Shown here piece after piece: positions 3,740 through 38,819 of a DNA stretch of 39,520 bases; position 1 is the stretch's first letter, and every line of letters starts with the position of its first letter. The notes below the pieces were generated by a model. It ran no database searches and was not told the DNA's origin. It was given only the letters and a program-made list of their open reading frames with translations. Origin of the DNA: Polyangiaceae bacterium. GTDB taxonomy: Bacteria; Myxococcota_A; Polyangia; Nannocystales; Nannocystaceae. Position numbers and translations under genes: made by a program. The stretch spans positions 1-39,520 of the forward strand of contig JALSIN010000446.1 of assembly GCA_026989935.1 (NCBI GenBank), read 5' to 3'.

Positions 3740-4428
3740 GGCTTGTAGGCGCAAAAATCCACGTCGTTCGACTTGAAGAAGCAACTCATACCCTGGGGAC
3801 ACAGCCACAAGAGGAGCGGGTCGCAGGACAGACGGCAGATGTCACCCGTACCACAGATTGGCGTGGCCAACCCACTGGGCGCCTCCGGACAATCTCCGTC
3901 GCTGTTGCACGACTTCGTGCAGTAGCTCCCCGTTACCACCATGAAATCCACCCCCCCCTCCTCCTGGTGACACACAAGTCCCGCCTCGCACTCCGACGAG
4001 TCCGTGCACGGCCCCTCGTAGAGGCCGAGTCCGCCGCCCCCCGTCGTCGTCGAACCGGCCCCCGTCGTCGTCGAGCCACCTCCGGTCGTCGTCGAGCCAC
4101 CTCCGGTCGTCGTCGAACCCGCCCCCGTCGTCGAGCCGAGGCCGCCGGTGCTCGAGGCCCCCGCCGTACCGCCGGCCGGACCGGTCACCGACGACGCCCC
4201 GGAGGCGCTATCCGAACCCTGGGACGTCGCGGTGGCGTGGCCGCTCGTCGTAGTCGCCGGACCCGATCCTGGAGCATCCGACGTACTGCCCGTCGCAGCC
4301 CCACCGCTGGCGTCGGTGCCGGAGCCGCCCAGGCCCTGCGTGGGCGGCGAGCAGGCGACGAGCGCGAGGGCCAACACCCAGGGGCCAGGGGCCCGATGAG
4401 ACGAAAACGAACGTCCCCGTGCATCCAT
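3736..4428 (-). CDS. Secreted Cys-rich lipoprotein with Thr/Gly repeat linker
   Basis: The protein has 230 residues. A signal peptide (VLALALVAC) ends in a lipobox Cys at residue 26, predicting an outer-membrane or periplasmic lipoprotein. Residues about 30-145 are an unstructured Ser/Thr/Gly linker, including tandem GSTTTGGG/GSTTTGAG units. The C-terminal 80 residues hold at least ten Cys (CTDSSECEAGLVCHQ, YCTKSCNSDGDCPE, CGTGDICRLSCD, CPQGMSCF), probably a disulfide-stabilised surface domain of the kind repeated in many myxobacterial lipoproteins. The ATG at 4428 was chosen because it gives a good signal peptide and has a TGG-TACACT element seven bases upstream. Function is unknown; surface display is inferred. 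Confidence 0.82.
   Translation of the reverse strand: MDARGRSFSSHRAPGPWVLALALVACSPPTQGLGGSGTDASGGAATGSTSDAPGSGPATTTSGHATATSQGSDSASGASSVTGPAGGTAGASSTGGLGSTTGAGSTTTGGGSTTTGGGSTTTGAGSTTTGGGGLGLYEGPCTDSSECEAGLVCHQEEGGVDFMVVTGSYCTKSCNSDGDCPEAPSGLATPICGTGDICRLSCDPLLLWLCPQGMSCFFKSNDVDFCAYKP
4041..4138 (-). repeat. Tandem 24-bp repeats coding GSTTTGxG linker
   Basis: About four copies of a 24-bp unit built on gtcgtcgtcgagccacctcc lie inside the lipoprotein linker. Unit length is a multiple of three, so copy-number change keeps the frame. Confidence 0.75.
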
Positions 4429-6035: not shown

Positions 6036-7160
6036 CTACAGGGCGTCGAGGGCTTCGAGGACCTGCGCCAACCGGGGCAGGACGTGCTCCTCGAACGCCA
6101 GCACGGCCTCGACCAGGGTGGCGTAGTGATCCATCAAGAGCGCCTGGCGCGCGTCGCACAGTTGCTCCTGCCGGAACGACTCGTCGTGGAGGGTCTCGGT
6201 GATCGTGCCGTCCACCAGGTGCCCCAGGGAGGCCACGAGGTTCTCGGGCACGAGCCGGTGGTCGCCGGCCACGTGGCTCGGATCGAAGATGACGGGCAGG
6301 ATCGTGCTCCTGCGCGCGTAGGTGATCGCGTTGAAGTCGGGCTGGTTGCGGCAGTAGCCGCCCTTCGTAAAGAGCGTCTTCATGCCGCGCTCGCACAGCA
6401 CGATGTCGAGGTTGCCCTGGTTGGCCACGTACTCGGCGGCGTAGAACCACTCGCTCGCCTCGTTGCCGAACCCACGCTTGAGGATCACCGGGCGCGCAAG
6501 GCGCCCCACCGCTTCGAGCAGGTCGAAGTTCTGGGCGTTGCGCGTGCCGATCTGCAGCATGTCGGCGTGCTCGGCGATCTCCGCGGCGAGGTTGTGGTCC
6601 ATCACCTCGGTGGCGTAGGGGATCCCGGTCTCCTCGCGCGCGGCGTCGAGCATGGCGATCCCCTTCATCCCGAGCCCGCGCCAGTCCGTCGGGCGCGTGC
6701 GCGGCTTGAACGCCCCTCCGCGCAAGATGACGCGGTCTTCGATCCCGTAGCGCTCGGCGATGGTCCGGGCCGCCCGCGCGATCGCGAGGGTCTGCGCCAT
6801 GGTCTGCGGGGAGTCCGGCCCCACGAAGAAGACGTGCCGGCCGGCCCCGATGCGTCGTACCTTTCCGTCGAGCCCCGGCACCTCCACCACGCGCCGCGGG
6901 CGCCGCACCACACCGCCTTCGCCCCGCGCGACGCGGGCGATGTTCTTGTGGTCGCTTTCGACCCGAAACGCCTTGCGCACCCCCGGCAGGTTGCGGATGA
7001 ACCCCTCGCGCGTCGAAAACTCGCGTGTATCCCCGATCACGTGCAGCGTGCAGTAGATCCCATCGCCCTCCGTGGTCTCCACGCGGTTGCCGAACCGGGC
7101 CGCGAGTTCCCGGATCTGCGTGATGGTCGCGCGCCGGCCTTTTTCGACTTCGATGATCAT
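6036..7160 (-). CDS. 3-deoxy-7-phosphoheptulonate (DAHP) synthase-like protein
   Basis: The 374-residue protein has the AroF/KdsA-type layout: an N-terminal ferredoxin-like regulatory domain (1-75, beginning MIIEVEKGRRATITQIREL) and a TIM barrel. DAHP synthase joins phosphoenolpyruvate and erythrose 4-phosphate as the first step of the shikimate pathway. Diagnostic motifs are LRGGAFKPRTRP at 146-157, ADMLQIGTRNAQNF at 199-212, ILKRGFGNEASEWFYAAEYV and DPSH at 293-296. Three metal ligands are expected at His296, Glu322 and Asp336. The fourth, normally Cys in AGPCSVE, is replaced: the motif reads VGPDSPQT with Asp116. Coupled by ATGA overlap to the CheB-like gene. It could be a true DAHP synthase or a related aldolase with altered metal use. 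Confidence 0.85.
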   Translation of the reverse strand: MIIEVEKGRRATITQIRELAARFGNRVETTEGDGIYCTLHVIGDTREFSTREGFIRNLPGVRKAFRVESDHKNIARVARGEGGVVRRPRRVVEVPGLDGKVRRIGAGRHVFFVGPDSPQTMAQTLAIARAARTIAERYGIEDRVILRGGAFKPRTRPTDWRGLGMKGIAMLDAAREETGIPYATEVMDHNLAAEIAEHADMLQIGTRNAQNFDLLEAVGRLARPVILKRGFGNEASEWFYAAEYVANQGNLDIVLCERGMKTLFTKGGYCRNQPDFNAITYARRSTILPVIFDPSHVAGDHRLVPENLVASLGHLVDGTITETLHDESFRQEQLCDARQALLMDHYATLVEAVLAFEEHVLPRLAQVLEALDAL

Positions 7161-8203
7161 GCCGCCGGCGAGCGTCGCGCGGGAACGTTGGCGGCGCAAT
7201 CCCCCGTGACGAGCCGGCGCACGATGGCGACATAGGCAGGGATGGACAACAGGACGGAGGGAAGCTTCTCGGTGCACGCCGCCTGAACGAGCGCCTGGTG
7301 CCGGCAGGCCGCCGGCTCGATGGCGGCCACCGCTCCACCCGCGTCCAGGACGGCACGGGCCCCCCACACCCCTTCGTCCCCCAGCCCGGAGCCGAACGTC
7401 ACGAACACCCGTTGGCCCGCGTCCACCAGGTTCGTCAACGTGAGGTCGAGATCCGGTCCCGGACGCTCGCGCCCCAGCGGCGCCGCCGCAAAGAAGATCC
7501 CCGGTTCGAGGCCAGCCGGATTGGCCGGCAACACGAAGACGGGTCCTTTCGCCAGGCGCGCCAGGCGACTGCGAAAGGCCGCGCGCTTCGACGGCAAGTG
7601 ATGCACCACCACGACGAAGGGGACCGAACTCGGAGCCAGCGCGGCGAGGACCCTGTCGATCTGCTCGTCGGCCCCCTCGGCGCCGGCAAAAACAGCCACG
7701 TCGATCCCGCGAGCCACGGCCTCTGCCAGCGCCGGGGGTGTCGGGTCGAGATGGCGCAGGCCGCCGGGCCGCGTCGAACGCCGCGTGTGCCGAGCCCGGG
7801 CCGCCGCTGCGTTCAGACGCGTGCGCAGGGTACGGTCGTCCACGGCGGCCGGGTCGGCCGGCAGCCGACGGCAGCCCACGAGCGGCGCCCCCTCGTCCCC
7901 CACGGCGAAGACGACGGCGTGGCCCTCCACCGAGGCCGCCAGGGTGACGGCCTCGGCGCGACCGAGCGATGGCAGCAGCACGACCACGTCGGCGCCTTCG
8001 ACGCCTTCGCGGGCATCCTGCCCTTTGGACGGATCCACGCAGGCGACCTCGTGCAGGGCCACCGCGCGCAGCCGGGCGAGCCATGGCCCGTGCCCGCCGC
8101 GCCCCACCAGCACGATGCGAGCGCGTGTCCTCGTGGAGGCGGCCACGGCCCGCTCATCGGCCGTCAGGCACCGGCGCTTGAGAGATCCGCGGCCGGCCGC
8201 CAT
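7157..8203 (-). CDS. Degenerate CheB-like protein (pseudo-receiver plus methylesterase-like domain)
   Basis: The protein has 348 residues. Residues 29-140 resemble a receiver fold (RIVLVGRGGHGPWLARL, ADVVVLLPS), but the phosphoacceptor Asp position reads Leu. Residues 165-330 resemble the CheB methylesterase: VAVFAGAEGADEQIDRVLAAL in place of the Ser-bearing GxSxGG segment, VVVVHHLPSKRAAF matching the QHMP His region (His202), and FGSGLGDEGVWGARAVLDAGG matching the GMGxDG loop. The catalytic Ser is Glu176 and the loop Asp is shifted or changed to Glu, so esterase activity is unlikely. It overlaps the DAHP-synthase-like gene by ATGA and lies 15 bases after the aminotransferase gene. No chemotaxis genes are nearby. 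A regulatory or substrate-binding role is inference. Confidence 0.7.
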   Translation of the reverse strand: MAAGRGSLKRRCLTADERAVAASTRTRARIVLVGRGGHGPWLARLRAVALHEVACVDPSKGQDAREGVEGADVVVLLPSLGRAEAVTLAASVEGHAVVFAVGDEGAPLVGCRRLPADPAAVDDRTLRTRLNAAAARARHTRRSTRPGGLRHLDPTPPALAEAVARGIDVAVFAGAEGADEQIDRVLAALAPSSVPFVVVVHHLPSKRAAFRSRLARLAKGPVFVLPANPAGLEPGIFFAAAPLGRERPGPDLDLTLTNLVDAGQRVFVTFGSGLGDEGVWGARAVLDAGGAVAAIEPAACRHQALVQAACTEKLPSVLLSIPAYVAIVRRLVTGDCAANVPARRSPAA

Positions 8204-8218
8204 GGCCCCACGGCCCGG

Positions 8219-9424
8219 TCATGACACGGCGGCCAGCGCCCCGGCCAGGGCGTCGAGCCCGAGGGCGAGGGTCTCGTCGTCCGTCGCAAAGGACAGGCGC
8301 AGCCCTCCCGGCGCCCCGAACGGCGTACCGGGCACGCACGCGACGCCCGCCGTCTCGAGCAGGTGGGTGCAAAGGGCCACGTCGTCGGCGAACGGTCGTC
8401 CCGCCCCGCAAAAGGCCGAGGCGTCCACGAAGACGTAGAACGCGCCGTCCGGCGGATGGGCGCGAAGGCCCGGGATCTTCGCCAGCCGATCCACCACGAG
8501 CCGGCGACGGCGCACGAACGCCTCGCGCATGGCACGACAGTCTTCTTCGCAGGCAGGATCGGCCAGCGCCACCGTGGCGGCGATCTGCGAGGGGGTGGCG
8601 GCCCCGGAGGTCGTCTGCCCCTGCACGGCGACGACCGCCCGCACGACCTCGGGCGGCGCGTACAGGAAACCCACGCGGTAGCCGGTCATGGCGTGGCTCT
8701 TCGACACGCCGTCCACCGCCACGATGCGGTCGAATCCGGGCGCGGCCACGAAGGCCGAGACGGCCTCGAAGCCGTCGTAGGTGATCTTGCGGTAGATGTC
8801 GTCGGTCACGAGCACGGCGCGTGGGGCCCGGCGCTCGACGGCCTCGGCCACGCGCCGGATGGTGTCCGCACGAAGGCCCACCCCCGTGGGGTTCGATGGG
8901 CTGTTGAGCACGACGATCCGCACCCGCTCGTCGAGGGCCTCGGCCAGCGCCTCGGGATCGAGGCGGTAGCCGTCCTCGGCGCGGGTGGGCACCACGACCG
9001 TCTGCGCGCCGGCAAGCTGCGCCATCACCGGGTAGCTGACCCAGTACGGTGCCACGAGCAGCACGCGGTCGGACGGTTCGAGGAGCACACGGAACAGGTT
9101 CGCGAGCGCCTGCTTGGCCCCGCAGGTCACGGCGATCTCCTCGGGGGACACCGGTCGGCCGTGGAACGCGGCAAGATCGTCGGCCGCCGCCCGGCGCAGC
9201 GCCGGCAGCCCCGCCACGGGCGCATAGCGCATGGCCTCGTCGCGCACGCGCTCGCTGACGGCGAGACGCACCGGCGCGGGCGGCCGGGCGTCCGGCTCGC
9301 CGGCGCTAAGGTCGTAGATGGTGCGCCCCTCGGCCCGCAGCGCGCGGGCCTTGGCCGACACGGCGAGCGTGGCCGACGGCCGAAGCGATCGTGCAAGCGT
9401 GGACAATGTGAAGGGCGAGGTCAT
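8219..9424 (-). CDS. Class I/II PLP-dependent aminotransferase (aspartate/prephenate type)
   Basis: The 401-residue protein has the fold-type I aminotransferase signatures: SAGEPDARPPAPV near the N-terminus, YWVSYPVMAQLAGA, NSPSNPTG at 174-181 (Asn binding the PLP ring hydroxyl), VTDDIYRKITYDG with the PLP-ring Asp, and SKSHAMTGYRVGF with the Schiff-base Lys242. These match the subgroup Ib aspartate aminotransferases, several of which also transaminate prephenate to arogenate. Coupling to a DAHP-synthase-like gene makes an aromatic amino acid role plausible, but substrate choice cannot be read from motifs alone. The ATG at 9424 overlaps the rsmD stop in ATGA. Confidence 0.93.
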   Translation of the reverse strand: MTSPFTLSTLARSLRPSATLAVSAKARALRAEGRTIYDLSAGEPDARPPAPVRLAVSERVRDEAMRYAPVAGLPALRRAAADDLAAFHGRPVSPEEIAVTCGAKQALANLFRVLLEPSDRVLLVAPYWVSYPVMAQLAGAQTVVVPTRAEDGYRLDPEALAEALDERVRIVVLNSPSNPTGVGLRADTIRRVAEAVERRAPRAVLVTDDIYRKITYDGFEAVSAFVAAPGFDRIVAVDGVSKSHAMTGYRVGFLYAPPEVVRAVVAVQGQTTSGAATPSQIAATVALADPACEEDCRAMREAFVRRRRLVVDRLAKIPGLRAHPPDGAFYVFVDASAFCGAGRPFADDVALCTHLLETAGVACVPGTPFGAPGGLRLSFATDDETLALGLDALAGALAAVS

Positions 9425-10002
9425 GACGTGGCGTCGTCCGTCGGGCGCAGAAAGATCTCGAACAGCGCCTGCCCATAGCGGCGCCGCCGGAGCAACCGCC
9501 AGGCTGGCGGCGGATCGAGCGTGACGGCCCGGCCGCGGTGGACCGGCCGGTGGGACACTACCACGCCGCCCGGCGCCAGGAAGCCCCCCGCCTCGACGGC
9601 CTCGAAGACCGCGACGAGGTCGCCCGCGTCCCGGTAGGGGGGGTCGGCGACGACGATGTCGAACGGGGCGCCGCATGGGCCCGCCAGATACGTCGCCACG
9701 CTCTGTCGGCGCACGGCCACCCGGTCTGCGAAGCCGATCCGCCGCGCCTCCGCCTCGATCCTTCGGGCCAACCGGGCGTCCTGCTCCACCAGGAGGCTCG
9801 CCGCCGCGCCACGGCTGAGCAACTCGAACGACACGATCCCCGACCCCGCATAAAGGTCCAGGATATGCGCCCCATCGATGCGGTCGCATAGGATCGATCC
9901 GATCGCCTCGCGCACCCGCGCTGGCACGGGTCGAGCCGGCGTCCGTGGAGGCAACGGGGCGAGCCGCCGTCCCTTGGCCGTGCCGCCGGTGATCCGGAGC
10001 AA
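9421..10002 (-). CDS. rsmD: 16S rRNA (guanine(966)-N(2))-methyltransferase RsmD
   Basis: The 193-residue protein begins LRITGGTAKGRRL, the typical RsmD N-terminus that contacts RNA. It has the SAM-binding motif LDLYAGSGIVSFE at 49-61 and the N6/N2-methyltransferase motif VVADPPY at 117-123. Length agrees with the family. The enzyme methylates a guanine in the small-subunit rRNA. A TTG start at 10002 was chosen because it begins exactly at the conserved motif and is preceded by a purine-rich GAGGGAAGGGG Shine-Dalgarno sequence that overlaps the stop of the upstream peptidase gene. It is followed by the aminotransferase with a 4-base overlap. Confidence 0.93.
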   Translation of the reverse strand: MLRITGGTAKGRRLAPLPPRTPARPVPARVREAIGSILCDRIDGAHILDLYAGSGIVSFELLSRGAAASLLVEQDARLARRIEAEARRIGFADRVAVRRQSVATYLAGPCGAPFDIVVADPPYRDAGDLVAVFEAVEAGGFLAPGGVVVSHRPVHRGRAVTLDPPPAWRLLRRRRYGQALFEIFLRPTDDATS

Positions 10003-10015
10003 CGCGCCCCTTCCC

Positions 10016-11041
10016 TCAGACTCCCGCGCCGCAGGCGACGCAGGCATCGTGCACGACAGCCCCCGCGTACAGTCGGCGGTCCTCGGCTTCGAGCCGGGCG
10101 AGTCCCGCGCGCACGTGACGTCGCCGGCGCCACCAGGCGACCCCGACGAGGGGCAACAACAACGCAAACGGCAGCCCGCCGCCGGCCGCGAGCGCATACC
10201 ACACGAAGCGATCGGGCAATGCGGACCGCCAGCTTCGCACCAGTTCCGGCAGCGTCCGCCCGTAGGCGCGCACGGCCGCCGCCTCGAGGCGGTAGCCGGC
10301 GGCCAGCTCATAGAGCATCTGACGAAACGATGCACCCGTCCCGTCCACGCTGCGCAGGTACGCCACGAAGTCGCGTGCGGCGGCGTAGGCCACCTGCACC
10401 GTGGCGGGATCGTCGGAGGCGAACGCACGCTCGAGCTCGGTCATCTCCGGCACGCCCGGCCCGAACACCGCGCCCGCCAGGGCCTCCGCGCGTGCGAGGC
10501 TGATCTTCCCCTCCAGGGCCTCGGCCACTCCCTCGTGCAGCCAGCGCGGCACCTTGCGCCCGCCGACGGCACGATAGAGGGCGACGTGGGCCATCTCGTG
10601 ACGCAACAAGCTCGCCAGGTCGGTGCGGTCGCCATCGGGGCCGTGGCGGGCCAGCACGATCTCGCCAACCTCGGGCCGGGCGACCCCCGCCACCCACCGC
10701 GGCATCCCCGTGGCCGTCGCCACCGTCCCGGCGTGATCGACCAGGTGGATCGTCAGCGCGTCGTCCAGATCGCCTTCCAGTTCATGCTCTACCGTTGACC
10801 AAAAATGTGGCGCATTCTCGACGAGGAAGGCCGCCTCGTCTTCCAGGCCCGGCTCGTAGCGCAGCACGATCCGTCCGACGCGGGCGGTGCGAACGGCGGA
10901 CGCCACGGCAAATCCCGCCGCACCGGCGGTCTCGGCCCTGGCGCCGGTCGAAAGCCCCACGAAGGCCGCGACGAACACCAGTGCGCGAAGGATGCGCAAC
11001 CAGCGCCGGAGGGCGGCGGGGGGACGGCCAGGCCGGATCAT
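10016..11041 (-). CDS. Membrane-anchored zinc metallopeptidase of the MA (gluzincin) type
   Basis: The protein has 341 residues. A signal peptide (LRILRALVFVAAFVGLSTGARA, ending near 36) exports the chain. The catalytic motif is HEMAH at 148-152, followed by VPRWLHEGVAEALEGK with Glu170 as the expected third zinc ligand, the classic peptidase-MA-like spacing. A second hydrophobic segment near 275-300 (ALAAGGGLPFALLLPLVGVAW) followed by WRRRRHVR anchors the C-terminus with a cytoplasmic tail ending in CVACGAGV. The enzyme would therefore cleave proteins on the periplasmic side. It overlaps the upstream repeat-protein gene by ATGA and belongs to the PilZ operon. Substrate unknown. Confidence 0.85.
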   Translation of the reverse strand: MIRPGRPPAALRRWLRILRALVFVAAFVGLSTGARAETAGAAGFAVASAVRTARVGRIVLRYEPGLEDEAAFLVENAPHFWSTVEHELEGDLDDALTIHLVDHAGTVATATGMPRWVAGVARPEVGEIVLARHGPDGDRTDLASLLRHEMAHVALYRAVGGRKVPRWLHEGVAEALEGKISLARAEALAGAVFGPGVPEMTELERAFASDDPATVQVAYAAARDFVAYLRSVDGTGASFRQMLYELAAGYRLEAAAVRAYGRTLPELVRSWRSALPDRFVWYALAAGGGLPFALLLPLVGVAWWRRRRHVRAGLARLEAEDRRLYAGAVVHDACVACGAGV

Positions 11042-12342
11042 GGGTGCACCTTGAGCACGACCTGCTCCTTGCGCAAGGTGCCGGCGACCAGGATCGCCAC
11101 GGCCGCGCCGAGAACGAGGACGACGGTGGTGCCGATGAGGGCCGCCCGGGCCTTGGGGCCGAGCCGAACCCACCGGCGCCTGGGGCGCACCCCCTCGGCC
11201 ACGAGACGTTCGTGCTCGGCCCACAGCGCCTCGAACAGGCGCGGATCCCGCGCTGCGGCCTTTCCGCGAATGGGGAGCGGCCGATCGAGCCGGCAGTCGT
11301 GGGGCAACAAGACCGGGTGGGCTCGACCGGGGACGTAGCCGACCACCACCACGAGGTCCTCGCGGCCCTCACGGCAGATCTCTCGGGGCGGCGGCGCTCC
11401 GGCGCGCAACCGGCGCACACGCAGGTCCAAACCGCGGGCCGCCCGGGCCGATGCCTCGAGCTGCGCCACGATCCGCCGCTCCTCCCGCGTCCCCGGCGCT
11501 TCCGGCGAGAACCCCACCGCCACCCGGACCACGGTGCGTTTCGTCACGACCTTCGGGGCCGGGGGCGTGCGCCCGCCCTCCCCTCCCCGGCCCGACGCCA
11601 CCCCCCCCGCCTCCCCGGCGACCGCCCGGCCCGACGCTTCCCCCCGCGCCTCCCCGGCGACCGCCCGGCCCGACGTCCGCCCCTCCGGCCAGGGGACGGC
11701 CCGCGGGCCAGCCGGCGCCCGAGGGTCCGGTCTCGACGCCCCCCACGACACGACTTTCGGGCGTGCCCACGACGCGCCCGACACGACCTTCGGGCGTGCC
11801 CACGACGCGCCCGACACGACCTTAGGGCGTGCCCACGACACGACCTTCGGGCGTGCCCGGGGGGCACCGGCCCACGGGCCGCCCCACGACCTCGGCTCGC
11901 CGTCCGACACGACCTTCGGGCCTGCCCACGCGCCCGACACGACCTTCGGGCCTGCCCACGCGACCTTCGGGCCGGCCCACGAAGCCCACGACACGACCTT
12001 CGGGCGTGCCCACGACACGACCTTCGGGCGTGGTCGGGGGGTACCGGCCCACGGGCCGGCCCACGACCTCGGGTCGGCCCACGACACGACCTTCGGGCGT
12101 GGCCACGACCCCCGCGACACGACCTTCGGGCCGGCCCACGAAGCCCACGACACGACCTTCGGGCGTGCCCACGACACGACCTTCGGGCGTGGCCGGGGGG
12201 TACCGGCCCACGGGCCGGCCCAAGACCTCGGGTCGGCGGCGGCGGGGGCAGGCGCGTGCGGCGTATGCGCCACGGCCGGCGATGCGAGCCCAAGGCAGAG
12301 CGTCACCAGCGCCGCGAGCACGCGCTCGGCCGAGCCCGGCAA
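11038..12342 (-). CDS. Exported single-pass membrane protein with PKVVS repeat array
   Basis: The protein has 434 residues from a TTG start at 12342, six bases after the PilZ stop. It has a signal peptide (LAALVTLCLGLASPAVA), then about 165 residues made of variants of ARPKVVSWA and three longer DPRSWAGPWAGTP-type units. A Pro/Gly linker leads to a conserved-looking domain of about 120 residues with two Cys (EICREGREDLVVVVGYV and LLPHDCRLDRPLPI). A transmembrane helix (ALIGTTVVLVLGAAVAILVAG) and short basic tail end the protein. The frame is supported by the signal peptide, the C-terminal helix and the fact that repeat spacings are multiples of three. The repeats are rich in Trp, Lys, Val and Pro, suggesting an extended, sticky extracytoplasmic stalk. 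No family is recognised and no function is assigned. Confidence 0.75.
   Translation of the reverse strand: MPGSAERVLAALVTLCLGLASPAVAHTPHAPAPAAADPRSWAGPWAGTPRPRPKVVSWARPKVVSWASWAGPKVVSRGSWPRPKVVSWADPRSWAGPWAGTPRPRPKVVSWARPKVVSWASWAGPKVAWAGPKVVSGAWAGPKVVSDGEPRSWGGPWAGAPRARPKVVSWARPKVVSGASWARPKVVSGASWARPKVVSWGASRPDPRAPAGPRAVPWPEGRTSGRAVAGEARGEASGRAVAGEAGGVASGRGGEGGRTPPAPKVVTKRTVVRVAVGFSPEAPGTREERRIVAQLEASARAARGLDLRVRRLRAGAPPPREICREGREDLVVVVGYVPGRAHPVLLPHDCRLDRPLPIRGKAAARDPRLFEALWAEHERLVAEGVRPRRRWVRLGPKARAALIGTTVVLVLGAAVAILVAGTLRKEQVVLKVHP
11742..12233 (-). repeat. Coding minisatellite (PKVVS repeats) with higher-order units
   Basis: About 13 copies of a core cacgaccttcgggc (PKVV on the minus strand), in units of 18-33 bp. 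Three larger blocks carrying the cgggccggcc segment start at 11875, 12052 and 12211, spaced 177 and 159 bp, both multiples of three. Spacing and copies vary, indicating slippage or recombination with the frame kept. Confidence 0.9.
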
Positions 12343-12348
12343 GGCGCC

Positions 12349-12684
12349 CTATCCCTGCTGCTTTCGGAAGAGAGCGTTCACCGCATAGACCTCGCGCGGC
12401 CGTAGGCCTGCCGTAAACTGCACACCGAAGCGCTGCGTATCGATCGGGTCCACCCAGCGCACCGTCGCCTCCACGGCAATCGGCTCGTCCAGGCCCGCCA
12501 GTTCGATCGCCAGGGCCACCTTCTCGTCCAGCGCCCAGGGTCGGCCAGCGGCCGCCCGGCAACAGGCGCCACCCAAGGACAGGTCCACGACGGTGCCCTC
12601 CACGTTGGCGCCGCCTCCCTGGATCCGCACGGGACAACCCACGTGGACGCGGGGGTGTTTCCTTCGCTCGGTCGAACCGGTCAC
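12349..12684 (-). CDS. PilZ-domain protein (probable cyclic di-GMP receptor)
   Basis: The protein is 111 residues, a single PilZ domain. The N-terminus ERRKHPRVHV carries the RxxxR motif and GTVVDLSLGGACC the DxSxxG motif that together bind cyclic di-GMP; VRWVDPIDTQRFGVQF closes the barrel. It is cytoplasmic and has no partner domain, so it probably passes the signal on by protein contact. It leads an operon with the PKVVS-repeat membrane protein and a membrane peptidase. The GTG start at 12684 fits the domain boundary and has a TAAGCC hexamer eight bases upstream. Confidence 0.9.
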   Translation of the reverse strand: MTGSTERRKHPRVHVGCPVRIQGGGANVEGTVVDLSLGGACCRAAAGRPWALDEKVALAIELAGLDEPIAVEATVRWVDPIDTQRFGVQFTAGLRPREVYAVNALFRKQQG

Positions 12685-12718: not shown

Positions 12719-14791
12719 TCAATCGCCCCCCGGCCCGTGTGCCCCCCGAGGCGGCCGCGTGCGTGTGCGAAAGTAGCGCCGCAACGCCTCCATGCGACGC
12801 CGGTCCTCCGGTGGGGCGCGTCGGCGGCAAGGGGCGGCCTCCTCGCTGTCGGGCGCCGCCCCCCACCGGATCTCGGGGCAGTCGAGCGGGTGATAGGCCA
12901 TCTCGAAGCGCTCCTTGCGGGCCACGATCTCCGCCAGGGTCAGCCGCTGCTTCGACCCATCGCTGCGCACGTACCCGATGGCGAACGCGGGATCCGCCAG
13001 GAGCTCGTCGCGCAGCCGCGAAAGCGCCGTGACCGTCTCGTCCACGCGCTCGGGCGGCACGTCGAACGCCGCCGGGTCACGCCGCACGCGCGCGGGAAAC
13101 CCCTCCACCACGTCGATGGCGATGAGAAGCCGCAGGTCCCGTGCCGGCGTCGAGTATGCCTCCCATGGTCCGGTGGTCTCGAAGATCGCGGCCCCCTCGG
13201 GCATCGGGATCGGGCGGTCCGGATGGGCGGCGACGAACGCCACGCCGTTTTCCACCGACCGCACCCGCACCCGCACGGAAGCCGCCAGGTGCTCGACGAG
13301 CTGCCGCATCACCGCGAAGGGGTCCCGCACACCGGGGCTGATGAGCCGGTCCATGGTGTCGTAGAAGGTCTCGGCGTCCATCGCCGTCCGGTCGCCCGCA
13401 TAGGCGGTGTCCGGCCGCGCGGCGATGGCTTCGTTCGAGGCGGGCCGAAACGACGCACCCGCACGCACGATGGGACGAAACGCCTTGAAGCCGCTCTCGC
13501 CCAGGGTCGGGTCGGGGTTCCACAGGAAATTCCCCTGCCAAAACGGCTTGCGCGTCAGGCTGCCGTCCGGTTGGCCGTCCACGGCGAACAGCACCCCCGG
13601 CCGGCCACCCGACGGGGGCATCCATCCAACGACCACGAAGATGTGCCCGTAGGGATCGGCGTAGATGGTCCCCGGGCGCACCCCCTGGTGGGAAAGCGCC
13701 ACCGGGTAGAAGTCGCTGCGGCCGGTGTCGTGGGGCACGCGCCCGTTGCCGGAGTGCACACCCCACGCGAGGGTCCGCGACAGCAGGCGTCCCACCCGCG
13801 CGACCGGGTCGTCGCCGTCCACCCGATCGATCTTCGCCACCAGGTCCATCCACGGGCCGCAGGCGGGCGGGCGGCCGACGCCGCGCGAGCAGTGCCGAAA
13901 CCCCATGGGCAGACCTCGTTTCCATCCAAAGTAGGCCCGAAGAAAGTACGGGGTGTCGGCACAGTCGGGCTGCAGGAACAGGCCGCCCTCTTCGGGGCGG
14001 CGGTCCTCCCCGAGACCCAGGCTGTTCCACAACAGGTTGTGCGCCGGGTCCGACGTGCGCTCGTGCAGCGCGCGGTGGGCGATCGTCTCGTCGCGCGCGC
14101 CGCGGAACAGTTCGCGTACGAACGCGGCGTACAAAGCCTCCTCGGCCGGGGTCCAGGTGCGGCGAATGGGCCACGGATCCTCCATGGACCGCGACGGGGC
14201 CACCGGCCGGCCCCTCGGGCGCACGCGCACCGTACGACAGGCGACCACCGCGCCGTCGCGCGCCACCTCGGCGACGAACCGACCGGCACGGGCGGGGACG
14301 GCTTCGAGGATCACGGCGTCCGGCTCGCCCCAATCGGCGCGCACCTGGGCTTCCACCGCGGTGCCGTCCGCGTCACGCAGGCGTATCGCAAGGGTGGGCC
14401 GAAGTGGATCGCCATCGAAGGTGGCCGCCAACACGCGCAGCGGCCGACCGGCGCGGGGGCGGTCGGGCGCAACGAGGACCCCCACGTCCGGCGGGTCGCG
14501 ACGCGGACATGGCCCGTCGATGGGGCCGTCGTACGGTCGTGGGCGGTCCGGCCGAACGGGCATCGCCGCCGTCCTTCGCGGGGGCGGCTCCGCGGCCGCC
14601 TGGGCCGGCCGAGGGGCGGGGGCCTCGGTGGGCGGCGGCGCCGGGACGTGAGCGCCCGGGGTGGGACCTGGGCCGTCGGTGCCGGTGCGGCACGCAACCG
14701 GTCCCACGGCTGCGATCACCCCCGCCACGAACCATCCACACGCACGGCGTGTGCAAGGGCCGCGAAGGACGCGATGTGCGAGCGGTACCAT
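12719..14791 (-). CDS. Large lipoprotein with transglutaminase-like Cys/His/Asp set
   Basis: The protein has about 690 residues. The signal peptide (WFVAGVIAAVGPVAC) ends in a lipobox Cys at 34. A Pro/Ala-rich linker and a beta-rich N-terminal part (about 100-195, resembling an immunoglobulin-like sandwich) follow. The central part has LQPDCADTPYFLRAYFGWKRGLPMGF (Cys near 277), YADPYGHIFVVVGW (His near 383) and FAVDGQPDGS (Asp near 405). The order and local context match papain-fold transglutaminase-like proteins, so a protease, amidase or cross-linking activity on the cell surface is possible. Family assignment is inference from motif order. ATG 14791 was preferred to a GTG two codons upstream. 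Confidence 0.75.
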   Translation of the reverse strand: MVPLAHRVLRGPCTRRACGWFVAGVIAAVGPVACRTGTDGPGPTPGAHVPAPPPTEAPAPRPAQAAAEPPPRRTAAMPVRPDRPRPYDGPIDGPCPRRDPPDVGVLVAPDRPRAGRPLRVLAATFDGDPLRPTLAIRLRDADGTAVEAQVRADWGEPDAVILEAVPARAGRFVAEVARDGAVVACRTVRVRPRGRPVAPSRSMEDPWPIRRTWTPAEEALYAAFVRELFRGARDETIAHRALHERTSDPAHNLLWNSLGLGEDRRPEEGGLFLQPDCADTPYFLRAYFGWKRGLPMGFRHCSRGVGRPPACGPWMDLVAKIDRVDGDDPVARVGRLLSRTLAWGVHSGNGRVPHDTGRSDFYPVALSHQGVRPGTIYADPYGHIFVVVGWMPPSGGRPGVLFAVDGQPDGSLTRKPFWQGNFLWNPDPTLGESGFKAFRPIVRAGASFRPASNEAIAARPDTAYAGDRTAMDAETFYDTMDRLISPGVRDPFAVMRQLVEHLAASVRVRVRSVENGVAFVAAHPDRPIPMPEGAAIFETTGPWEAYSTPARDLRLLIAIDVVEGFPARVRRDPAAFDVPPERVDETVTALSRLRDELLADPAFAIGYVRSDGSKQRLTLAEIVARKERFEMAYHPLDCPEIRWGAAPDSEEAAPCRRRAPPEDRRRMEALRRYFRTRTRPPRGAHGPGGD

Positions 14792-14904
14792 CTGCACCGG
14801 CCGCGATCATGCCCTGCCCCATCGGACCCGTCCAACGGTCTTCGACGAAAACGACGTTCGCCCCGGGCACGTTTCGATCACGCACGCGGGCGCCGCGACC
14901 GTGG

Positions 14905-35715: not shown

Positions 35716-37041
35716 CTAGGGCTTGCGAGGCAACACCCACGGATCGGCGTCGAATCGATCGTACTCGGTGGCGCCTTCGTCGGCGACGTACACGACCACC
35801 ACGCTCAAGTCGCCCGCATCCGAAAGCGACGGCTCCCCCACGCCGACCACGTGCCCGGGCGCCCCCGCGGGCGCCGGCCCCGGCGTCACCACCAGCTCCG
35901 CCGGCCCCCATGCGTCGAACGCCACGGCGATGTTCGCGCTGTCTTCGTGCCGACTGCGGTAGACGGACAGCACGCCGTCCCGATCCGACGCAAAGTACAA
36001 CCACCAGTCCGCCCCCTCGCGGACCAGGTGTCCCGTCATCGTGGTCGGGCCGGCGTTGATCGTCGGGCCGAGCGGGGCCGGGGCCGACCACGTCTGTCCG
36101 TCGTCCGCGCTCACGGCGTACTGGATCTCGACCATCGGGTCGTCCACCCCGTCGTTGTCCCACAGCAGCACGAGCGTGCCGGCGTCGAGCCGCTCGAGGT
36201 GTGGGTTGTCCTCCTGCCCCGGCGTGTTGACCGGCGGCGGCAGCGGCTCGAAGGCGGAAAACGGCGGATCGTGGTCCACACCGCGCGCCCAGTACAGGTC
36301 GTTGGCCGCCTGATCGGTCGAGACCGACACGACCACGTCTTGGGTACCGTCGCCGTTGTCGAGGGCCTGGAAGGCCCCGTCCCAACGGTAGGGGTTCGCG
36401 ATGTTCGAGCGCTGCCACGGTCCGAACGGTTCGTCCACGCTGGCGCGGGTGGCGTGGGCGATGTCGCTGTGCAGCACGTTGCGGCATCCCCAGGGGTTCA
36501 TCGTAAGGTCCATGCCCAGATCGGGCCCACGCAGAAACGGGGTGACGTCCGGACAAGCCGGGTTCTGCGCGAAGAACGTCGCAAACTGGATCACATCGGC
36601 CGGCGCATAGAAAGCGTACAGGTGCAGCCCGTCGCGACTGACGAACACGCCGTCCTCCCAGCCCAACGTCGCGAGCGGCCGCCGCTGGGGCTGCGCGAAC
36701 ACGTCCGCGAGGGCGACCTCCAGCACCGCCTGCGCCTTGATCGCGTCCCAGTCCGGCCCATCGCCCCGCCCCCCGGTCCCCGAGGCGCTCCCCGTGCCGC
36801 CGGACGAACCGCTCCCGGTCGCCGAGCCGATCCCGGTCCCACCGTCCGAAGCGATGCCGGTGTCCGCGACCGTCGCGCCCTGCGTGCCGGTGCCGGTGTC
36901 GCCGCCCCCGCCGCCCCCGCCGCCCGTCGTACACGAGCAAACGAACGCGACGAAGACGGCCCGGCGCCAAGCCTGCGGGCGGTGCCGAGGGGGTTCCATG
37001 GCGAACCCGAGGCGCCGAAAGAAGCGCGGCGGAAGGCCCAT
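35716..37041 (-). CDS. Lipoprotein with sialidase-like beta-propeller
   Basis: The protein has about 441 residues. A twin-Arg-rich N-region and hydrophobic stretch (AWRRAVFVAFVCSC) end in a lipobox Cys near 35-37, followed by a Gly/Thr/Ser linker (TGTGTQG, GSGSSGGTG). The mature part has beta-strand repeats with Asp-box-like elements (SADDGQTWSAP, SRDGLHLYAFY, ASDRDGVLSVYRSR), as in sialidase or glycosyl-hydrolase-like propellers. It would be an exported surface protein, perhaps carbohydrate-binding; catalytic residues are not identifiable. A start at 37041 is preferred because TATGCT ends twelve bases upstream. An ATG at 36999 would give a shorter signal peptide and is a serious alternative, since neither has a Shine-Dalgarno sequence. 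Confidence 0.8.
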   Translation of the reverse strand: MGLPPRFFRRLGFAMEPPRHRPQAWRRAVFVAFVCSCTTGGGGGGGGDTGTGTQGATVADTGIASDGGTGIGSATGSGSSGGTGSASGTGGRGDGPDWDAIKAQAVLEVALADVFAQPQRRPLATLGWEDGVFVSRDGLHLYAFYAPADVIQFATFFAQNPACPDVTPFLRGPDLGMDLTMNPWGCRNVLHSDIAHATRASVDEPFGPWQRSNIANPYRWDGAFQALDNGDGTQDVVVSVSTDQAANDLYWARGVDHDPPFSAFEPLPPPVNTPGQEDNPHLERLDAGTLVLLWDNDGVDDPMVEIQYAVSADDGQTWSAPAPLGPTINAGPTTMTGHLVREGADWWLYFASDRDGVLSVYRSRHEDSANIAVAFDAWGPAELVVTPGPAPAGAPGHVVGVGEPSLSDAGDLSVVVVYVADEGATEYDRFDADPWVLPRKP

Positions 37042-37169: not shown

Positions 37170-38819
37170 ATGGCTGCGACACGACGCCTCTTCGCCACGA
37201 TCCTCGGCTGGAGCTGCGCCTGTGCGGCGACGCCCGAGCGCGCGACCGGCCCAACGGCCGGATCGAGCGGCGGCCCCGGCACCGCGGCGACCGGCGGGAC
37301 CGACCGACCCGGCACGGCCTCGACGACCGCCGGCCCCACGACGGCCGCCGCGGACACGGGCAACGCCAGCACCTCAGGTCCGAAGTTCGACGTTGCCATC
37401 GACGGCGGCCTGCCGCCCGTGGACGAGAGCACCTGTGCCGCGGCGGCCGCGGCCCTCAGCAGCGCCGGCTGCGCCTTCGCCCCCATCGTCGCCAACCAGA
37501 ACTGGACCCGCACCTGGGGGCTGGCGGTCGGTAACCCGCAGGCCGTGCCGGCGCAGGTGACGTGGACCGGCCTCGATGGTGCCCTCCTGGACGAGGCCAC
37601 GATCGCCCCGGGCACGATGCACGTGTTCACCCTGGAGGGGAACAGCCCACAGCTCGCCGTGCACCAGTCGTCCCTGGACACCCAGGTGACGCTCCAGGCC
37701 ATGCGGCTGGAAAGCGACGTCCCCGTGGTCGCCTACCAGTTCACCCCCTACGCGGACAGCCAGGTGGCAAGCTCCGACGCCTCGCTGCTGCTGCCCGAGC
37801 ACGCCTGGGACGACGACTACTACGTCGTCAACTACGCCAACGACGGCACGCCGTGGCTGATCGTCGTCGCCATGACCGACGGCACCGAGGTGACCGTCAC
37901 CGCGCCGGCCACCTTCGAGGGGATCACGCAACCCGCCCCCGGGATCCCCCCGCTCTCGGCCGGGCAGTCCTTTACGACGACGCTCGACGCCCGCATGGTG
38001 CTGAGGCTGATCCCGTCCCAGGTGGCGCCGAACGTGGACCTGACCGGCTTTCGCGTGCAGAGCACGGCCGACGTGGCCGTCTTTGCGGGCACACCGTCCA
38101 TGAGCATCCCCGGCCCCGGGATGAACTTCTACAAGGACTACCTCGAAGAGCAGCTCCCGCCGGTCTCGACATGGGGCACCGAAGTCGTCGGCGTGAAGTT
38201 CCGCGAGCGCGGCGGCGAGGTGGACCTCTACCGCTTCGTCGCCTCCGAGGACGGGACGGTGATCCAGTTGTCCGGAGACGTCACCGACACAATCACACTC
38301 GATGCGGGCGAGTTCGCGCAGGTGGCCACGGCCGGCTCGTTCGTGGCGACCAGCGACACCCCCTTCCTCGCGGCCCATTTCCTCACCAGCCAGGACCAGA
38401 CGACGGGCCCGAAGGATCCGGTCGCCTACCCCGGTGAAGGAGAGTCGGGCAACTGCATCCCCGGCGGCGGGAACACCACGCTCCTGGGGGACCCGACCTA
38501 CGCCGTGCTCGTCCCCTCCGATCAATTCCGCACCGACTACGTGTTCCTGGCGCCGGCCACCTACGCCTGGGACAGCCTGACCGTCGTGGCCCCCGCGGCC
38601 GCCTGGGACGCGCTGCGGCTCGACGGGGCCCCGCTGCCCGTGCCGGGCGAACCGGTGGCCGGCGGTCCCTGGGCGCGGGCGAGCTTCCCGATCACCGACG
38701 GGGTGCACACGATCACCGGGACGACCCCGGTCGGGATCGAGGTCTACGGCTACGACTGCGGCGTGGCCTACGCCTATCCCGGCGGGCTGCGGCTCGCCAA
38801 GATCAATCCCGCGGGTTGA
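37170..38819 (+). CDS. IgGFc-binding-like secreted protein
   Basis: The protein has 549 residues. The signal region (RRLFATILGWSCACAA) has a possible lipobox Cys near 16-18, followed by a Thr/Gly/Ala linker to about 70. The body shows repeated motifs seen in the bacterial IgGFc-binding family: VPVVAYQFTPY, SSDASLLLPEHAWDDDYYVVNY, LIVVAMTDGTEVTVTAP, FRVQSTADVAVFAGTPSM, and YAVLVPSDQFRTDYVFLAP. The name comes from mammalian mucin-like homologs. In myxobacteria these are exported proteins of unknown role, not proven antibody binders. The ATG at 37170 has no visible -10 element or Shine-Dalgarno sequence. It ends 20 bases before the convergent VWA-type gene. Confidence 0.8.
   Translation: MAATRRLFATILGWSCACAATPERATGPTAGSSGGPGTAATGGTDRPGTASTTAGPTTAAADTGNASTSGPKFDVAIDGGLPPVDESTCAAAAAALSSAGCAFAPIVANQNWTRTWGLAVGNPQAVPAQVTWTGLDGALLDEATIAPGTMHVFTLEGNSPQLAVHQSSLDTQVTLQAMRLESDVPVVAYQFTPYADSQVASSDASLLLPEHAWDDDYYVVNYANDGTPWLIVVAMTDGTEVTVTAPATFEGITQPAPGIPPLSAGQSFTTTLDARMVLRLIPSQVAPNVDLTGFRVQSTADVAVFAGTPSMSIPGPGMNFYKDYLEEQLPPVSTWGTEVVGVKFRERGGEVDLYRFVASEDGTVIQLSGDVTDTITLDAGEFAQVATAGSFVATSDTPFLAAHFLTSQDQTTGPKDPVAYPGEGESGNCIPGGGNTTLLGDPTYAVLVPSDQFRTDYVFLAPATYAWDSLTVVAPAAAWDALRLDGAPLPVPGEPVAGGPWARASFPITDGVHTITGTTPVGIEVYGYDCGVAYAYPGGLRLAKINPAG

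Follow-up and report, generated by a model that had tools for sequence, protein, structure and literature searches.

Genes and features of the locus

The window analyzed here, a stretch of DNA of 39,520 nucleotides, is contig C446 of a 4.47-Mb MAG (471 contigs) from the Nannocystaceae, Myxococcota. It contains a run of minus-strand genes encoding, in order, a 692-aa putative lipoprotein, a PilZ protein, a repeat-bearing membrane protein (here referred to as REP), a peptidase, RsmD, an aminotransferase, a CheB-like protein, DAHP synthase and a thiolase. The initial annotation had described the PilZ, REP and peptidase genes as adjacent or overlapping on one strand, and this was confirmed: all three lie on the minus strand between 10016 and 12684, the TTG start of REP follows the PilZ stop after 6 bp, and REP and the peptidase overlap in an ATGA. 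The three genes were also taken to make up an operon; they are present in one run, but this run is longer, with the lipoprotein gene upstream and rsmD, the aminotransferase gene and more genes downstream.

The PilZ protein (12349..12684, minus strand; 111 aa) stands alone, matches PF07238 with 68.9 bits against a cut-off of 22.5 and has no membrane segment. Its RxxxR and DxSxxG motifs are invariant in the family alignment. The peptidase (10016..11041, minus strand, with its ATG at 11041) is a membrane-anchored HExxH protein of the Peptidase_MA superfamily, identified by Pfam, by its invariant motif and by the ATGA overlap with REP. It passes the threshold of Peptidase_MA_2 (PF13485) narrowly, with 32.8 bits against 32.4. 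The HEMAH motif is encoded at 10586-10600 and the invariant third-ligand Glu at 10532-10534 (both minus strand), and H148, E149, H152 and E170 are invariant in 26 peptidase sequences. Because the protein has a signal sequence and one C-terminal helix with a trailing RRRR, its active site is predicted to face the periplasm.

The gene upstream of PilZ encodes a putative lipoprotein (12719..14797, minus strand; 692 aa, start codon uncertain), which we characterized by its invariant residues, a structural model and its distribution, since neither Pfam nor NCBIfam gave a match. Its N-terminal domain is Ig-like, and the fold search matched this domain alone. Cys278, His384 and Asp406 are invariant, Cys278 is placed near the head of a helix in the model, and the order of the three residues would suit a transglutaminase-like triad. 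The gene is present in 88 of 144 class genomes and is linked to the unit in the Nannocystaceae only; at 20 lipoprotein loci away from the unit, none of the three genes adjoined.

On the other side, rsmD (9421..10002, minus strand; 16S rRNA methyltransferase, TIGR00095 with 110.3 bits, Pfam and synteny) is a downstream neighbour kept in the family and is not thought to belong to the unit. The CheB methylesterase-like protein (7157-8203, minus strand; 35.1 bits) lies amid metabolic genes, and no other chemotaxis genes were recognized near it. An IgGFc-binding-family protein, likely a surface protein, is encoded at 37170-38819 on the plus strand (PF17517, 207.7 bits). The window genome has 10 GGDEF domains, so c-di-GMP should be present.

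Conserved core and local repeat of REP

REP (11038..12342, minus strand; 434 aa) was recognized by its open frame, signal peptide and single C-terminal transmembrane helix, and has neither a Pfam match nor an adhesin domain. Its conserved parts are a 170-aa domain, the transmembrane helix (about 11077-11157) and a short tail, VVLKVHP, together at 11041..11556 (minus strand). The last 173 residues can be aligned in 24 genomes with 17 invariant columns, and two invariant cysteines of the core would suit a periplasmic disulphide. In the AlphaFold model (mean pLDDT 89) an alpha/beta domain, predicted with confidence, leads into a long helix. The fold matches of the core, to anticodon-binding-type domains and PelC, were weak, with a best E of 0.018 and TM-scores of about 0.2-0.4; the match to PelC (TolB-N/PelC-like fold) had an E of about 0.09 and a TM-score of about 0.3-0.4. 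Sequence-profile searches of the PDB with the REP core, the peptidase and the upstream lipoprotein returned nothing credible, and matches to HisF over about 45 residues look spurious. Among 241 class genomes the core was confined to the Nannocystaceae, where 28 of 29 genomes have it. The arginines directly before the helix contradict the positive-inside rule for an exported domain.

The PKVVS repeat region (11728..12237, minus strand) is delimited by its tandem repeats, by motif counts (13 PKVV, 12 PKVVS) and by third-position GC, which is 0.88 in the PKVVS frame versus 0.65 and 0.75 in the other frames. This frame links the signal peptide to the conserved core uninterrupted. At the DNA level there are significant arrays with units of 24, 33 and 177 bp, the last being a higher-order duplication atop the two shorter units at 11776-12140. 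Arrays of this kind can be distorted by assembly from short reads. In a whole-genome search the repeat unit occurred here and at one other site with two mismatches. None of the relatives has any PKVVS repeat; a variable linker joins their signal peptide and core in its place, and the repeat is absent even from a genome of the same genus (G001) with 81% core identity. The linker of the window is basic (38 K/R versus 10 D/E), whereas those of the relatives, read by eye, look proline-rich and acidic. The sequence PKVVTKRTVV at the head of the core would be a plausible seed of the repeat. A disordered linker has thus been lengthened by the PKVVS repeat in a lineage-specific manner, local to one genome. 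REP had initially been read as a repeat stalk and likened to a Lap-type adhesin; we rejected that reading, as the repeat is missing from every relative and its basic linker is set against acidic-looking ones, which also leaves the idea of an adhesin cut free without support. Two further tandem repeats were seen in the window, at 4037-4133 and 36772-36861; since their units of 21 and 42 bp are multiples of three, in-frame minisatellite growth may be general in this GC-rich genome.

Conservation of the gene order

Within the Nannocystaceae (family f1; other codes such as f4, f8, f9, f12, f20 and f23 denote further families), the recurrent order is lipoprotein, PilZ, REP, peptidase, rsmD and aminotransferase. 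The window genome has PilZ, REP and peptidase together, and so do 16 of the 25 other family loci, among them that of G015, which is split over contigs and was placed by hits on a second contig. In G002 PilZ directly precedes the peptidase and REP is missing. At the three loci of genus g8 about 1.4 kb separates REP and the peptidase. The named relatives are Nannocystis, Enhygromyxa and Paraliomyxa, of which the latter two carry the trio. Eight loci, from genera g4, g10 and g12, have no PilZ, and their peptidases form one branch (SH-aLRT 95), which includes Nannocystis and in which REP and the peptidase remain. No close PilZ was found elsewhere in the g4, g10 and g12 genomes, so that a single loss of PilZ is the simplest reading. 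As the other two genes were kept in this branch, PilZ would be a modulator at most.

We then considered the other families. The full trio with PilZ in front is found at 10 of 13 loci in f12 (PilZ at 13 of 13, the anchored protein being called at 10) and at the single locus of f23, and in f24 PilZ lies directly before the peptidase at one of two loci. More generally, a gene for a C-terminally anchored, short-tailed protein lies just upstream of the peptidase at 23 of 50 class loci outside the Nannocystaceae. Of 81 control genes 4 gave the same result, and among these four there is one PilZ-linked anchored protein (p = 2.5e-8, with related genomes counted that are not independent). The anchored protein and the peptidase are paired without PilZ in f25, f31, f22, f14 and f11. 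Conversely, PilZ lies right before the anchored protein with no adjoining peptidase in f20, f16, f9 and at one f4 locus. At the peptidase loci of other classes PilZ was found in 0 of 20, one of which has a doubtful upstream gene. In f8 (L059, L066) a PilZ-like gene is encoded close to the peptidase on the other strand; the two matches are weak and lack the c-di-GMP motifs in the part checked.

The peptidase itself is widespread: 232 of 290 genomes of the class and 144 of 189 genomes of the phylum have it, and in most cases no PilZ adjoins. The anchored proteins of f12 and of f20/f4 are homologous (hhalign 97.6%, E 2.8e-12), and a PEGA domain is above the cut-off in those of f20, f4 and f23 and weak in f12. 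Kinship of REP with the anchored proteins of f12, f20 and f4 was not detectable (hhalign of A1 against A5 and A6, probability <1%). Co-conservation of the three-gene order had been set beforehand as the test of the unit, and the order of PilZ, anchored protein and peptidase is indeed conserved beyond chance in three families.

The linked PilZ lineage

The PilZ proteins linked to these loci (n = 31) form one group in the tree, with support of 99/99, versus 24 other PilZ proteins, nearly all of which come from the window genome and four genomes of the trio or family. The C-terminal signature GxQFxxGLRAxxVWA, in the form of the pattern used, is found in 30 of 31 linked PilZ and in 0 of 24 others. 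The linked PilZ proteins thus share common ancestry. Their c-di-GMP motifs, RxxxR and [D/N]xSxxG, are intact in all 31, and they are predicted to bind c-di-GMP. By chance, a PilZ neighbour of this kind would be expected at 0.2-0.4% per locus.

Close members of this lineage are widespread, being present in 128 of 251 genomes of the class. Where a family lacks the trio, the gene is usually located elsewhere, and we therefore rejected a PilZ subfamily confined to the neighbourhood of the peptidase. In such families the orthologous PilZ gene, read by eye, is often near a probable phosphatidylserine synthase gene (L203, L204, L205, L213, L219 and L220).

Comparison with known systems

In the Lap system, LapD links c-di-GMP to a transglutaminase-fold protease in the periplasm (PMC4359373), and DvhD-DvhG of Desulfovibrio achieves the same coupling with different parts (PMC13090378). 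The likeness to the present unit is in logic only, namely a c-di-GMP receptor inside, a membrane relay and a periplasmic protease. Here the receptor would be a soluble PilZ instead of a transmembrane GGDEF-EAL or HD-GYP protein, and the protease is a self-anchored HExxH metallopeptidase instead of a soluble cysteine protease; unlike in Lap, no conserved large repeat adhesin accompanies the unit. The LapG family (PF06035) was found in 0 of 39 genomes, with Caulobacter matched as positive control, in agreement with the initial statement that no component matches LapG. LapD_MoxY_N (PF16448) was likewise found in 0 of 39 genomes, yet the control genomes gave no match either. With the LapG family absent from the 39 genomes and no conserved adhesin, the unit is not a member of Lap, though it could work in a similar way. 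In favour of the Lap-type logic proposed initially are the conserved order, the motifs in all linked PilZ and the 10 GGDEF domains, but the part of the repeat adhesin is not supported.

The PilZ proteins of M. xanthus (PlpA, PixA, PixB and others) are stand-alone or small c-di-GMP effectors, and this set was reported as not conserved in the Nannocystineae (PMC8316039). They resemble the linked PilZ in having a PilZ domain with RxxxR, but that paper does not describe any of them as the partner of a membrane peptidase. The PEGA anchored proteins of f12, f20, f4 and f23 are similar to REP in having a signal peptide, periplasmic domains, a single C-terminal helix and a tail of some 10 residues, and in their place after PilZ. 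REP, however, has no PEGA domain, and the common features are place, apparent topology and tail only. A literature search for a gene set of PilZ, anchored protein and peptidase found nothing relevant.

Proposed mechanism and alternatives

Judged by its conserved gene order the unit is real, and the mechanism proposed for it is plausible. Our main reading, to which we give a probability of roughly 0.4, is a three-protein envelope unit of Polyangiia-type Myxococcota in which PilZ would act via the anchored protein on the peptidase. The inner membrane would carry the peptidase by its anchor, the zinc site facing the periplasm. The middle protein would be exported but stay attached through a single C-terminal helix, so that its folded domain lies beside the peptidase as an adaptor, inhibitor or sensor. 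PilZ would be the cytosolic receptor, whose c-di-GMP-bound form may alter periplasmic proteolysis by acting on either the middle protein or the peptidase's cytosolic tail. A LapD-like relay would thus be divided among separate proteins, with a metallopeptidase replacing LapG. We infer the topology, c-di-GMP binding, physical contact and direction of control. PilZ pairs with the anchored protein and the anchored protein pairs with the peptidase; together with the trio, these overlapping pairs make the anchored protein look like a hub and suggest that it is the relay between the cytosolic PilZ and the periplasmic peptidase.

We counted for this mechanism the gene overlap, the order in f1, f12 and f23, the two kinds of pair in further families, the homology between the anchored proteins of f12 and f20/f4, the single PilZ lineage with its intact motifs, the low chance expectation for such a PilZ neighbour and the presence of GGDEF domains. 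Counted against it are the loss of PilZ in the branch that contains Nannocystis and the occurrence of the same lineage elsewhere in many families, both of which call for caution, as well as the missing kinship of REP with the anchored proteins of other families and the arginines before the REP helix. A wider version is rather unlikely in our judgement: an inside-out c-di-GMP switch of periplasmic proteolysis without LapD and LapG, composed of a soluble PilZ, a bitopic relay and an inner-membrane metallopeptidase, that would be old in the class and have the transglutaminase-like lipoprotein as a further part in the Nannocystaceae.

The main rival is that the anchored protein and the peptidase are a housekeeping pair for processing or quality control in the envelope, with PilZ retained through shared transcription or its own tie to the anchored protein and proteolysis not controlled by c-di-GMP. 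Several observations favour a pair of this kind: the peptidase occurs widely in class and phylum, mostly with no PilZ beside it, one branch has lost PilZ, and the run extends into rsmD and metabolic genes. Against it, the same PilZ lineage precedes the two genes in three families and has all its motifs intact there. We consider this rival nearly as likely as our main reading. In the remaining two readings the peptidase would cut the anchored protein itself. It may mature a protein of envelope assembly or polysaccharide export that PilZ regulates, which would fit the weak fold matches found for the REP core (PelC, anticodon-binding-type domains), the PEGA domain in f20, f4 and f23 (weakly in f12) and the pairs of PilZ and anchored protein without peptidase. 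Every fold match, however, has E >0.01 with TM-scores of about 0.2-0.4, and no polysaccharide genes were recognized at the locus, which make this reading improbable. Slightly less probable still is that the anchored protein is a substrate, an envelope or surface protein released by the peptidase as LapA is by LapG, as initially proposed. The overlap of the REP and peptidase genes and the proximity of anchored protein and peptidase in many families are in line with it, but REP is short and single-pass with neither adhesin domain nor Pfam match, the repeat is absent from relatives, and what is conserved is the membrane-proximal domain.

Significance of the unit

What is conserved at this locus is not the conspicuous repeat, which belongs to one genome. 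To our knowledge, many myxobacterial c-di-GMP receptors are without a known output, and the presence of one PilZ lineage beside a membrane peptidase provides a concrete candidate output for such a receptor. If the proposed control by PilZ is true, the unit would be a third protein make-up for the logic of Lap and Dvh, in which proteolysis in the envelope is controlled from inside.
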